From Candidatus Hydrogenedentota bacterium (GTDB lineage: Bacteria > UBA8481 > J006): a stretch of DNA of 8,610 bases. A program made the translations under genes and the position numbers. Positions 2,519-5,999 of the stretch are shown here, piece after piece; positions within the stretch are counted from its first letter, which is position 1, and each line of letters starts with the position of its first letter. Where the stretch lies: assembly GCA_003697085.1 (NCBI GenBank), contig RFFU01000066.1:1-8610 (forward strand), written 5' to 3'. The notes below the pieces were generated by a model. The model saw nothing but the letters and a program-made list of their open reading frames with translations, made no database searches and was not told the DNA's origin.

Positions 2519-3826
2519 GTGACGATCTCGAGTCACCCTCAGGAGAATCGCGGGACGAAGGGGAACGTGGGGACAACATTTTTCGATGGAAGAACCGAGC
2601 GGTGGGAGACGGAATGCGACCGTTTTCTCTGTCTCGCCTTCACGCATGAGTATTGTTCCGTGGAGGAGATCGAAACAATTCGGAAGTCGTTTCCGGAGCC
2701 GGAACAGCTCGCGGCAACCCTTCCCGTCGAGGAACTTCTCGTTCTCGAGACCTGCAATCGCCAGGAAATCTATGTGGTCGCTTCCGACCCAGCGAGGTTG
2801 GTAAGAGCGCTGAGAGAGAGGATCGGAGTGGTGCTTCCGGAGGCGAAAGGGAGGCTCTTTACGGGGCGCTTTGCGGTCCGGCATCTCTTCCGCGTAGCGG
2901 CGGGCGTGGCCTCGCTGGTCGTCGGGGAGAACCAGATTCTCGGACAGGTGGAACGCGCATTGATGCGGGCGAGGAAGGAAGGGCGTGCCGAGAAGTTTCT
3001 TTCGACCGTGTGTTTCGCGGCGCTGCGGGCGGGGAGGCGCATCCGTCGAGAAACGGGCATCGGGCGTGGCAATGTTTCCATGGCTACGATCGCGTTGCGT
3101 CTGGCTCGGCGTATCTACGATTCGCTTGCCGGGAAGAATGTTCTGCTGATCGGTGTCGGTGAGATGGGACGGATTCTGGCGCGTTACTTTCACGAGGAAG
3201 GAAGTCGGATCGCCGTGAACTATCACCGAAACAGAACGCGCGCCGAGGAGATCGCGGCGGAATTTCGCGCGGAACTCGTATCTCCCGAAAATCTTTGGAC
3301 GTCCTTACGCAAAGCCGATATCGCGGCGGTTGCCACGGGGGCGTCCGAGTTCGTTCTCACCGCCGAACGACTCGCTCCCGTCACGGAACTGCGGCGTCAT
3401 CGGCCGCTTCTGATTCTCGATCTCGCCTTGCCCCGAAACGTGGAGCCGGACGTGGGGGAACTCGAAGGCGTGTATCTTTTCGGCATTGACGATCTGCGGG
3501 ATTTGGCTCGGGAACATTTCCGCCGGCGGGAGGCGGAGAAGGAGGTGGCGGAGAGAATACTCGAGGAGGAGATCGAACGGTGGGAATTAAGGGAGATCCG
3601 TCGGAGGTACGCTCCGATTTTGAGGGAGGTTTTCACGAGGGAGACTTCGGATCCGGGGGGACTCTTCGAGAGAACGGCATGGAGGCGTTTCGCCACGCGG
3701 GTGCTCAGTCACACGAAGGTGGCCGACGGCGTCGGTTATCGTTGGGCGCTCGAGACTCTGAAGGCGACGACACGAAGCCTCCGTGGAAGAGAGGCTGCGA
3801 GAGCCGGGGGGGGAGCAGCGGACTGA
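2519..3826 (+). CDS. hemA: Glutamyl-tRNA reductase
   Basis: This enzyme reduces glutamyl-tRNA(Glu) with NADPH to glutamate-1-semialdehyde, the first committed step of C5 tetrapyrrole synthesis. The protein has 435 residues, typical of the family. The catalytic domain holds the thioester-forming Cys79 in ETCNRQEIY, and His122 starts the HLFRVAAGVASLVVGE motif, followed by NQILGQ. The usual DSM in that motif is replaced by ASL. A Rossmann NADPH domain follows, with GVGEMG at 212-217 and a 'LILDLALPRNVEP' strand. An alpha-helical C-terminal dimerisation region begins near 330. The N-terminus carries about 35 extra residues before FLCLAFTHEYCS, which replaces the usual GxNHxTAP-type segment. GTG 2519 is the longest start; GTG 2567, with a purine-rich GAAGGGG upstream, would remove 16 residues and is a fair alternative. 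The gene follows the desulfurase by 34 nt and precedes the next gene by 3 nt. No other heme gene is in view, so hemL, hemB and others must be elsewhere. Confidence 0.93.
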   Translation: MTISSHPQENRGTKGNVGTTFFDGRTERWETECDRFLCLAFTHEYCSVEEIETIRKSFPEPEQLAATLPVEELLVLETCNRQEIYVVASDPARLVRALRERIGVVLPEAKGRLFTGRFAVRHLFRVAAGVASLVVGENQILGQVERALMRARKEGRAEKFLSTVCFAALRAGRRIRRETGIGRGNVSMATIALRLARRIYDSLAGKNVLLIGVGEMGRILARYFHEEGSRIAVNYHRNRTRAEEIAAEFRAELVSPENLWTSLRKADIAAVATGASEFVLTAERLAPVTELRRHRPLLILDLALPRNVEPDVGELEGVYLFGIDDLRDLAREHFRRREAEKEVAERILEEEIERWELREIRRRYAPILREVFTRETSDPGGLFERTAWRRFATRVLSHTKVADGVGYRWALETLKATTRSLRGREAARAGGGAAD

Positions 3827-3829
3827 TAT

Positions 3830-5044
3830 ATGATCGAAAAACGGGAGGATATCCAAAGAGATTTGGAACCGAGTGTGGACGGAAACAGAGTCACCTTTCA
3901 TTTTGATGCGCCGGAGGCTCGAATGGTCAACGTCCTGGGGACCTTCAATCACTGGGAATTGACGGAAGGAGTGATGCGAAAGAACGAAGACGGAATATGG
4001 ACGAGAACGGTCGAGGTTCCGTTGGCCGGTTGCTATGACTACAAATTTCTCGCCGACGGCCAATGGCTTCTCGATCCGCGGAATCCGGATTACGGACGGG
4101 ACGCGAAGGGACGTTACAATTCCCGTTTTCAGATTCACACATCGGAAAGGGCGCGGGCGCTTCTGGCCGATGTCGATCGAAGACTCGAGGCGAATCCTCC
4201 GGGCGCGGATCCCGGGACGCGGCGCGAGATATTCGAAGATCTCGATGGAATACTTCAGTTGCCGAATGCTCCTTGGAGTTACACGCTCAACAGACACTTC
4301 CTCCGGAGAATCCGCAAATATGGGGATCGGGTGGAGCGGGAAACGGCCGCATCGGTCGCCAATATTTACTGTCACGGATTCGTCCTCGAACGCGGGCTTC
4401 GGATCGGAATCGATGTCGTGGCCACGCGGGCGGTTTGGGGCGTCTATTGGGATATTCCCGACGACGTCTATCTCCGGCTCGCCTCGGCCCTCGATCTTCT
4501 CTGCATCTCCCATCTCCATCCGGATCATTTCGATTATCATCTAGCCTCTGCTATGGTGGCCCAAGGAAAAACCGTTCTCGTGCCTTACGAGATTCGGGAG
4601 CGGTTTCCCTCCGGTGCCGTCGGGATTCGAGACGGCGAGCCTTTTGAGAAGGAGGGAACGCGCGTAACCTTTCGGAAGGGAATACACGTGTATGATGAAC
4701 GGGAGAGGCTTGTCCTCAAGATCATCGATATCGTCAGCGGCGACGGGTTTCATACCGTCCATCTGTCGGATCACGATTATACGCGCGGAGTTGACGTCGA
4801 GCCTCCCGTCGATCTGCTTCTGGCCAAGACCGGCGGTATCAGTCCGCTCGTGCCTTCCTTTCCGGCCTTCCGGAATCTCCTTCTTCACCTCGAACCGAAA
4901 CGTTTTGTTACAGGACATCTTAATGAACTCGGTCACCCCGTCCGCGCCGGTCGCGAGCCGTATCGAACGGGGTGGGAGATCGTACGAGAGAACTCGAACT
5001 ATGAGGGGATGGTTCTCCATTGGTGCGAGGAATGGAGGTTGTGA
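3830..5044 (+). CDS. CBM48 glycogen-binding module fused to a metallo-beta-lactamase fold
   Basis: This is a 404-residue, probably cytosolic two-domain protein. Residues about 18-103 form an AMPK-beta-type CBM48 module (GTFNHWE at 37-43, then a YKFLADGQWLLDP stretch from 71). Trp42, Lys72 and Trp79 match AMPK-beta Trp100, Lys126 and Trp133, which contact the sugar, with the Lys-to-Trp spacing kept. Residues about 104-175 are a charged helical linker. Residues about 176-404 look like a metallo-beta-lactamase hydrolase of the UlaG-like type: SHLHPDHFD gives His228, His230, Asp232 and His233. His286, Asp314 in SDHD and His363 in TGHLNE are likely remaining metal ligands, and VDLLLAKTGG (327-336) is a typical late motif. 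The substrate is unknown; a phosphorylated or cyclic sugar derivative bound near glycogen or another alpha-glucan is inference. The ATG lies 3 nt after the hemA stop, with GGGGAG about 14 nt upstream. Its stop overlaps the nfo start. Confidence 0.9.
   Translation: MIEKREDIQRDLEPSVDGNRVTFHFDAPEARMVNVLGTFNHWELTEGVMRKNEDGIWTRTVEVPLAGCYDYKFLADGQWLLDPRNPDYGRDAKGRYNSRFQIHTSERARALLADVDRRLEANPPGADPGTRREIFEDLDGILQLPNAPWSYTLNRHFLRRIRKYGDRVERETAASVANIYCHGFVLERGLRIGIDVVATRAVWGVYWDIPDDVYLRLASALDLLCISHLHPDHFDYHLASAMVAQGKTVLVPYEIRERFPSGAVGIRDGEPFEKEGTRVTFRKGIHVYDERERLVLKIIDIVSGDGFHTVHLSDHDYTRGVDVEPPVDLLLAKTGGISPLVPSFPAFRNLLLHLEPKRFVTGHLNELGHPVRAGREPYRTGWEIVRENSNYEGMVLHWCEEWRL
5034..5038 (+). promoter_or_regulatory. 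Ribosome binding site fixing the nfo start
   Basis: GGAGG lies 5 nt before ATG 5044, inside the last codons of the preceding gene. It favours 5044 over the in-frame GTG at 5020, which would add eight residues. The TGATG overlap suggests translational coupling. Confidence 0.75.
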
Positions 5045-5919
5045 TGGAAAAAGGGAAGGGAAGGGGCCGCGGTAAGAGCGGTCCGTTGATCGGGTGTCAC
5101 GTCTCGATAGCCGGGGGGGTCTCGGCCGCCCCGGCGCGTGCGGCGGAATGCGGCTGCACGGCGTATCAGATCTTCACGCGGAATCCGCGCGGGTGGAAAT
5201 ATTCGGACTTGCCGGCGGAAGAAGCCGCACGGTTCCGCGCGGAAAACGAGCGGCTCGGGCTCTATCCCGTCGCGCATATGCCGTACCTGCCGAATCTGGC
5301 GGCGCCCGATCCTGGGAATTACAAGCGTTCGGTCGAGGCCCTGATCGGGGAATTGAGAAGATGTGATCTGCTCGGAATCGAGTACCTCGTTACGCACCTC
5401 GGCTCTCATCTCGGAACGGGCGAGGCTGAGGGACGGCGCAGGATCGTCTCCGCCATTCGAACGGCGCTGGAGGAGGCCGGCGGGGGGACGATGATCTTGA
5501 TGGAGAATACCGCTGGAACCAAGAACTCGATGGGAACGTCGCCGGAAGAACTGGCCGATTTCCTCGACGCGCTTGACGGGCACGAGCGGGTCGGGCTTTG
5601 CATCGATACGGCCCATGCTTTCGCCGCCGGTTACGATTGGACGGCTGCGAAGGACCGGTTCCTTGCCCCTTTGAAGCAGCGCGAGGTTCTGGATCGAGTC
5701 CGTGTTCTCCATCTCAATGATTCCAAGGTCCCGTTGGGAAAGTGCGCCGACCGGCATCATCACCTCGGCCTCGGCGAGATCGGTCTGGAAGGGCTTCAGC
5801 GTGTCCTGAAGAAACGGCCGTTCCGGAATCTGCCGATCATTCTCGAGACGCCGGTGGACGAGGAGCGCGACGATGCGGGAAACGTCGCGCTTGCTTGGAA
5901 ACTCCACCGGGGGCGGTAG
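5044..5919 (+). CDS. nfo: Endonuclease IV (AP endonuclease)
   Basis: Endonuclease IV cuts DNA 5' to abasic sites and removes 3'-blocking groups in base-excision repair, using a trinuclear zinc centre in a TIM barrel. The protein has 291 residues (E. coli Nfo has 285). All nine expected zinc ligands can be placed: His78 (AHMPY), His118 (THLGSH), Glu154 (MENTAG), Asp188 and His191 (DTAHAF), His223 (LHLNDSK), Asp236 and His238 (DRHHHLG) and Glu268 (LETP). The N-terminal GCHVSIAGG and YQIFTRNPRGW segments are also classic. It is the last gene of the cluster. ATG 5044 overlaps the stop of the CBM48-MBL gene by one base, so the two are almost certainly co-transcribed. No oxidative-stress regulator site is visible. 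Confidence 0.96.
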   Translation: MEKGKGRGRGKSGPLIGCHVSIAGGVSAAPARAAECGCTAYQIFTRNPRGWKYSDLPAEEAARFRAENERLGLYPVAHMPYLPNLAAPDPGNYKRSVEALIGELRRCDLLGIEYLVTHLGSHLGTGEAEGRRRIVSAIRTALEEAGGGTMILMENTAGTKNSMGTSPEELADFLDALDGHERVGLCIDTAHAFAAGYDWTAAKDRFLAPLKQREVLDRVRVLHLNDSKVPLGKCADRHHHLGLGEIGLEGLQRVLKKRPFRNLPIILETPVDEERDDAGNVALAWKLHRGR

Positions 5920-5941: not shown

Positions 5942-5963
5942 AGCGCAGGCATCTTGCCCGCAG
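5942..5963 (+). repeat. GCAGGCA hairpin repeat, copy 1
   Basis: AGCGCAGGCA-TCT-TGCCCGCAG recurs 36 bp downstream at 5978-5999. It folds as GCAGGCA (5945-5951) with TGCCCGC (5955-5961) around a 3-nt loop, with one A:C mismatch. It is a REP-like palindromic unit just after the nfo stop. With no T-run it is a poor intrinsic terminator but could protect the 3' end of the operon mRNA. Confidence 0.7.
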
Positions 5964-5977
5964 TGGGAACGGCCCGT

Positions 5978-5999
5978 AGCGCAGGCATTCTGCCTGCAG
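5978..5999 (+). repeat. GCAGGCA hairpin repeat, copy 2
   Basis: GCAGGCA (5981-5987) and TGCCTGC (5991-5997) form a perfect 7-bp stem around a TTC loop. The flanks (AGC before, AG after) match copy 1. The differences from copy 1 lie in the loop and in the base that restores pairing. Confidence 0.75.

Follow-up and report, generated by a model that had tools for sequence, protein, structure and literature searches.

The glycogen-binding domain of the AMPK beta subunit (PF16561) belongs to a kinase subunit, and the CBM48 of GlgB and other GH13 enzymes (PF02922) is partnered with a glycoside hydrolase. In AMPK, W100, K126, W133, and N150 contact beta-cyclodextrin (PMC9788615), and in the plant CBM48 protein PTST, starch binding was abolished when both of the equivalent tryptophans were replaced (PMC4339375). 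SEX4, a plant glucan phosphatase, also uses a CBM48 (PMC4339375). On the other hand, CBM48 is common on CE1 feruloyl and acetyl-xylan esterases, where it is packed against the catalytic domain, lacks starch binding, and has no measured affinity for glycans (PMC8040265). Because these modules fail to bind starch, a CBM48 match is not sufficient by itself as proof of glucan binding.

We analyzed a window of 8,610 nucleotides (the whole stretch of DNA under study) from a Candidatus Hydrogenedentota bacterium. It encodes a protein whose CBM48 is partnered with a hydrolase of the metallo-beta-lactamase (MBL) fold instead. An earlier, sequence-only reading knew of no described MBL-fold enzyme with a CBM48, and our full-text literature searches, which combined CBM48 or AMPK1_CBM with MBL terms, found no such paper (subscription papers and InterPro architecture lists lay outside their scope). 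The pairing, together with a protease-fused branch of it, thus appears to be undescribed; both domains are well known. The same reading had given branching and debranching enzymes, AMPK subunits, and related starch proteins as the normal carriers of CBM48; the list should be extended to the CE1 esterases.

The CBM48 module and the MBL domain

The features under consideration, all on the forward (+) strand, are:

2519..3826, +, hemA, glutamyl-tRNA reductase (TIGR01035, 2.9e-83)
3830..5044, +, the CBM48-helical linker-MBL fusion gene, 404 amino acids (open frame from ATG to TGA; full-length homologues with the same order)
3866..4141, +, CBM48 / AMPK-beta-type glycogen-binding module (predicted binder), about residues 13-104 (Pfam, phmmer, residue table)
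4142..4333, +, three-helix linker, residues 105-168, with helices at 106-121, 128-142, and 151-168 (alignment with Bacteroidota relatives; DSSP on the model)
4352..5041, +, metallo-beta-lactamase-fold domain, residues 175-404 (conservation table; VIA-align on the model)
5044..5919, +, nfo, deoxyribonuclease IV (TIGR00587, 1.3e-66)

The N-terminal module is above the curated cut-offs of both relevant Pfam families: CBM_48 (PF02922) at residues 14-82 (E = 1.3e-8, 35.5 bits, cut-off 22.4) and AMPK1_CBM (PF16561) at residues 22-104 (E = 6e-8, 33.2 bits, cut-off 26.8). By phmmer, the CBM48 alone matches AMPK beta-2 (2.8e-5) and GlgB (3.5e-4), and the PDB sequence matches of the N-terminal ~100 residues are AMPK beta subunits and GlgB branching enzymes. 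The AMPK contact residues that had been proposed from the sequence are confirmed by alignment: W42, K72, and W79 correspond to W100, K126, and W133. When the AMPK beta sequence is aligned by hand, N97 falls at the position of N150. The equivalents of AMPK L146 and T148 are replaced by K93 and R95.

In the AlphaFold model, the CBM48 part is strand-rich, with predicted strands (15-17, 20-26, 33-37, 56-62, 70-75, and 78-80) that may be placed as in AMPK beta. Block means of pLDDT are 77-89 at residues 21-60, 61-70 at residues 61-80, and below 50 at residues 82-104, which are of low confidence. The structural fold search covered mainly residues 170-404, that is, the MBL part.

Within the window's own genome, the nearest CBM48s belong to amylase-family proteins, one of which has four tandem copies (as read from the sequence). 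These modules have W, K, W, and N at the four positions, as in the window protein; AMPK beta-2 has W, K, and W. The GH13-like CBM48 proteins of this genome, identified by sequence reading, are G000:C18 (L116) and G000:C106 (L122).

For the MBL half, the window protein itself matches Pfam's Lactamase_B_3 below the cut-off (E = 0.03), whereas homologues exceed it (4.8e-6 in Lindowbacteria and 1e-7 for L059). The AlphaFold model matches the alpha-beta/beta-alpha fold of solved MBL structures with Z of 17-22 over ~200-250 residues; the VIA-align values are 21.6 for 3bv6 and 20.9 for UlaG (2wyl). In the predicted structure, the C-terminal half is clearly an MBL domain. As the sequence-only reading had it, the HxHxDH motif (H228, H230, D232, and H233) is accompanied by H286, D314, and H363, and all of these are conserved in all four free-standing CBM48 proteins. 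The homologues in G001, G030, and G312 have the CBM48-linker-MBL order of the window protein and the complete set of MBL ligands.

The closest folds are those of UlaG (L-ascorbate-6-phosphate lactonase, 2wyl/2wym) and the UlaG-like 3bv6, with Z of ~21 over 220-227 residues and rmsd of 2.5-3.1, followed by NAPE-PLD (4qn9) and the UPF0173 metal-dependent hydrolases (TM_1162, 3x2z; cAMP-binding 7e3w), with Z of ~20. TM_1162 also gives a profile match (7.5e-5). The NAPE-PLD and UPF0173 structures are 16-20% identical to the window protein and lack a CBM48. The alignment to UlaG begins only near residue 150-155, in the last linker helix, and where UlaG has a short N-terminal hexamerization arm, the window protein has its CBM48. 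UlaG orthologues are marked by over 50% identity within their alignment and by N-terminal hexamerization helices (PMC3219644). With 12-14% identity to 2wyl/2wym and a CBM48 at its N terminus, the window protein is not a UlaG orthologue, and no ula genes were found near its gene. We also set aside a diiron oxygenase of the CmlA/FrsH type: CmlA was the top Foldseek match, but the rmsd was 18 over the full alignment, and H286 stands where CmlA has a glutamate ligand.

Secreted-type proteins from Bacteroidota (L031-L035) and others (L062-L067) share the helical linker, the HxHxDH motif, and a C-terminal region, (Q/G)HENE(I/L)G..RE..WGE, with the window protein. They differ from it in having a hydrophobic N-terminal segment (in those checked) and no CBM48. 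Because the linker is common to these CBM-less relatives, we count it as part of the MBL unit.

Occurrence and the subtilase-fused form

Among roughly 430 genomes searched, the CBM48-MBL order was present in ten, from four bacterial phyla. Since nine other genomes have the identical order of domains, the fusion is not an assembly artefact, and we rejected chance or misassembly as its source. The fusion protein of the sister genome is 50% identical to the window protein, and those of two genomes of the Lindowbacteria phylum are 31% identical. (Two named relatives are Candidatus Hydrogenedentes CG07_land_8_20_14_0_80_42_17 and Candidatus Lindowbacteria RIFCSPLOWO2_12_FULL_62_27.) In a profile search of 386 genomes spread across the domain, the helix-MBL unit was found in 22. 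A CBM48 precedes it in both genomes searched from the window's phylum (the window's own and its sister), in 2 of 3 from the Lindowbacteria phylum, in 2 of 9 from the phylum of G328, and in 4 of 39 from the phylum of G383, all four of these in one family. No further phyla emerged from another sample, of 380 genomes around G383, that overlaps with the first. In a tree of 28 MBL domains, whose backbone is weakly supported, counting fusion origins gave three label changes, a result compatible with a single origin and equally with several.

We found no viral-contig relatives, plasmid matches, or PHROG family for the window protein, and so a phage or plasmid origin was discarded. A role as a defense system was also set aside: PADLOC was empty for the window protein, and the subtilase-fused versions gave generic subtilase/IetS matches only.

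In six of the genomes, from the phyla of G328 and G383, CBM48-linker-MBL forms the C-terminal half of S8 subtilases of ~915-935 amino acids (Pfam, 1e-36 to 1e-40 for the three that were scanned; the others were read from sequence). All six of these copies are short of at least two MBL ligands. H230 is leucine in all of them; the G328 type also has glutamine in place of H228, and the G383 type lacks H286 and H363. Because this metal site is degenerate, the CBM48-MBL family, judged by its ligand residues, is not a working hydrolase in every member. The pairing keeps its order across four phyla and occurs either as an intact hydrolase or joined to a protease, in which case the metal site is degenerate.

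On the CBM48 side, the window protein and G001 retain W42, K72, W79, and N97, as do all of the subtilase-fused versions that we checked. In two Lindowbacteria homologues, Arg replaces K72, Tyr or Phe replaces W79, and there is no counterpart of N97; the MBL ligands are retained. Thus, the view that the residues of both halves are kept holds for the window protein and not for the family as a whole. Also, in another family of G328's phylum (f55; L071, L072, L073, and L076), subtilases of ~475 amino acids have a CBM48 at the C terminus and no MBL, so the CBM48 travels with the MBL unit and also with the subtilase.

The subtilase-CBM48-linker-MBL proteins are at L058:3806-6601, L059:1258-4056 (-), L060:5475-8252 (-), and L093-L095, and they look cytoplasmic. 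Those in L058 and L059 begin with a stretch that matches a portion of PF00589, the tyrosine integrase family (2.6e-10 and 3.3e-6, respectively).

A putative glycogen-tethered hydrolase

None of the seven CBM48 carriers that we checked has a hydrophobic N-terminal segment (the highest 15-residue Kyte-Doolittle mean is 1.53). By the same hydropathy scan, which is not a trained signal-peptide predictor, 9 of 10 CBM-less relatives do have one (1.9-2.3); the exception, L068 (family f120), has neither the segment nor a CBM48. This contrast fits a cytoplasmic site of action for the CBM48-bearing unit. As for glycogen itself, glycogen synthase (GlgA) is above its curated cut-off in 9 of the 10 carrier genomes, with a partial match in the tenth, and all 10 have alpha-glucan phosphorylase matches, four of them weak. 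One of the CBM-less helix-MBL relatives, at L064:5070-6425 (-), has an N-terminal domain of ~110 amino acids behind a likely lipoprotein signal.

We think it reasonably probable that the window protein is a cytoplasmic MBL hydrolase, similar in fold to UlaG, NAPE-PLD, and UPF0173, that is tethered to glycogen by an AMPK-beta/GH13-type CBM48. The N-terminal module would tether the hydrolase to the cell's alpha-glucan, with the aromatic pair of W42 and W79, along with K72 and N97, gripping glucose units. The predicted active site would hold two metals, one at H228/H230/H286 and the other at D232/H233/H363, with D314 as the bridge. Hydrolysis at the glycogen surface might then act on a small sugar compound, either phosphorylated or of the lactone type, or else on a phospho-ester of the glucan. 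UlaG-like MBLs use phosphorylated sugars and nucleotides (PMC3219644), and so a phospho-sugar or lactone is our first guess for the substrate. It is a guess because the solved MBL structures share 10-20% identity with the window protein. The computation shows the order of the domains, the conserved residues of both halves, the lack of a secretion-type hydrophobic segment, and the matches to glycogen synthase and phosphorylase in carrier genomes; that the protein binds glucan, which metal it holds, and whether and on what it acts as an enzyme are inferred.

Several observations speak against glycogen tethering: the contact residues are changed in Lindowbacteria, the equivalents of AMPK L146 and T148 are replaced, and the neighboring genes (hemA, nfo, and, in relatives, cbiG) are not glycogen genes. 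It is possible, but in our view unlikely, that the CBM48 no longer binds sugar and instead packs on the MBL domain, shaping the active-site cleft or a dimer interface, with a soluble substrate unrelated to glycogen. The CE1-attached CBM48s offer a precedent for such packing (PMC8040265), and the Lindowbacteria proteins kept their metal ligands while changing the glucan contacts; the gene neighbors also point away from glycogen. Against a purely structural module, the window protein, G001, and every subtilase-fused relative checked still have these contacts, which match those of the amylase-attached modules in the window's genome.

A bacterial analogue of laforin or SEX4, in which the MBL domain would strip phosphate or phosphodiester groups from glycogen held by the CBM48, seems improbable. 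Like the window protein, these glucan phosphatases join a carbohydrate module to a hydrolase domain, SEX4 with a CBM48 (PMC4339375) that has a weak sequence match to the window module, and some MBL relatives of the same fold have phosphodiesterase or phospho-sugar chemistry. However, the catalytic domain of SEX4 and laforin is a dual-specificity phosphatase, whose fold is unrelated to the MBL fold, and the catalytic half of the window protein has no sequence kinship to known glucan phosphatases, so the homology is confined to the binding module. Also, the glycogen of these bacteria is not known to be phosphorylated.

If the CBM48 does bind glycogen, this would suggest that recruitment to bacterial glycogen extends beyond glucan-processing enzymes and includes a protease. 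A more speculative idea, which we consider doubtful, is that several deep bacterial phyla use glycogen as a scaffold or sensor surface. CBM48-helix-MBL would then be a free hydrolase bound to glycogen in some of them and, in others, the dead-site, C-terminal targeting unit of a cytoplasmic subtilase. If true, bacteria would have an arrangement that parallels AMPK and laforin in its logic. The window protein is small and soluble, which makes it suited to a direct test of glycogen recruitment.

Gene neighbors

The hemA stop codon is 3 nt from the ATG of the fusion gene, and the TGA of the fusion gene shares one base with the likely ATG of nfo (5044; TGATG). Given this close spacing, a cysteine-desulfurase-like gene, hemA, the fusion gene, and nfo look like a single operon. 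In two genera of the Lindowbacteria phylum, a cbiG-like gene (named by sequence reading) is directly upstream of the fusion gene (L029:6863-9236 and L061:5545-8035). In L029, the fusion gene is also preceded by a wider cobalamin cluster and followed by metX/metY-like genes (likewise named by sequence reading).

The hemA/cbiG neighborhood is suggestive, but it is absent around the closest homologue (G001/L028), which is flanked by a penicillin-binding-protein-like gene and a DksA-like gene. The sequence-only reading had left a link to heme or DNA repair open, and such a link is gene neighborhood and nothing more. A role in tetrapyrrole or corrinoid metabolism, with the CBM48-like module as a general beta-sandwich binding domain, would account for the adjacency to hemA and cbiG, but we consider it very improbable given the setting of the closest homologue and the different neighbors of the subtilase-fused versions that we inspected.

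The window also has several repeats. A short tandem array at 797-932, in the gap that separates the cysteine-desulfurase gene from the first small ORF, has three copies of a ~36-nt unit (AAACCACGGAA..CACGGAA), and a 48-nt direct repeat (736-783 and 927-974, 90% alike) lies on both sides of it. At 320-387, the 7-nt unit TTTTGCC is repeated in tandem (~9.7 copies), and directly 3' of nfo, at 5942-5999, there are two copies of a 22-nt repeat (GCAGGCAT.TGCC.GCAG).
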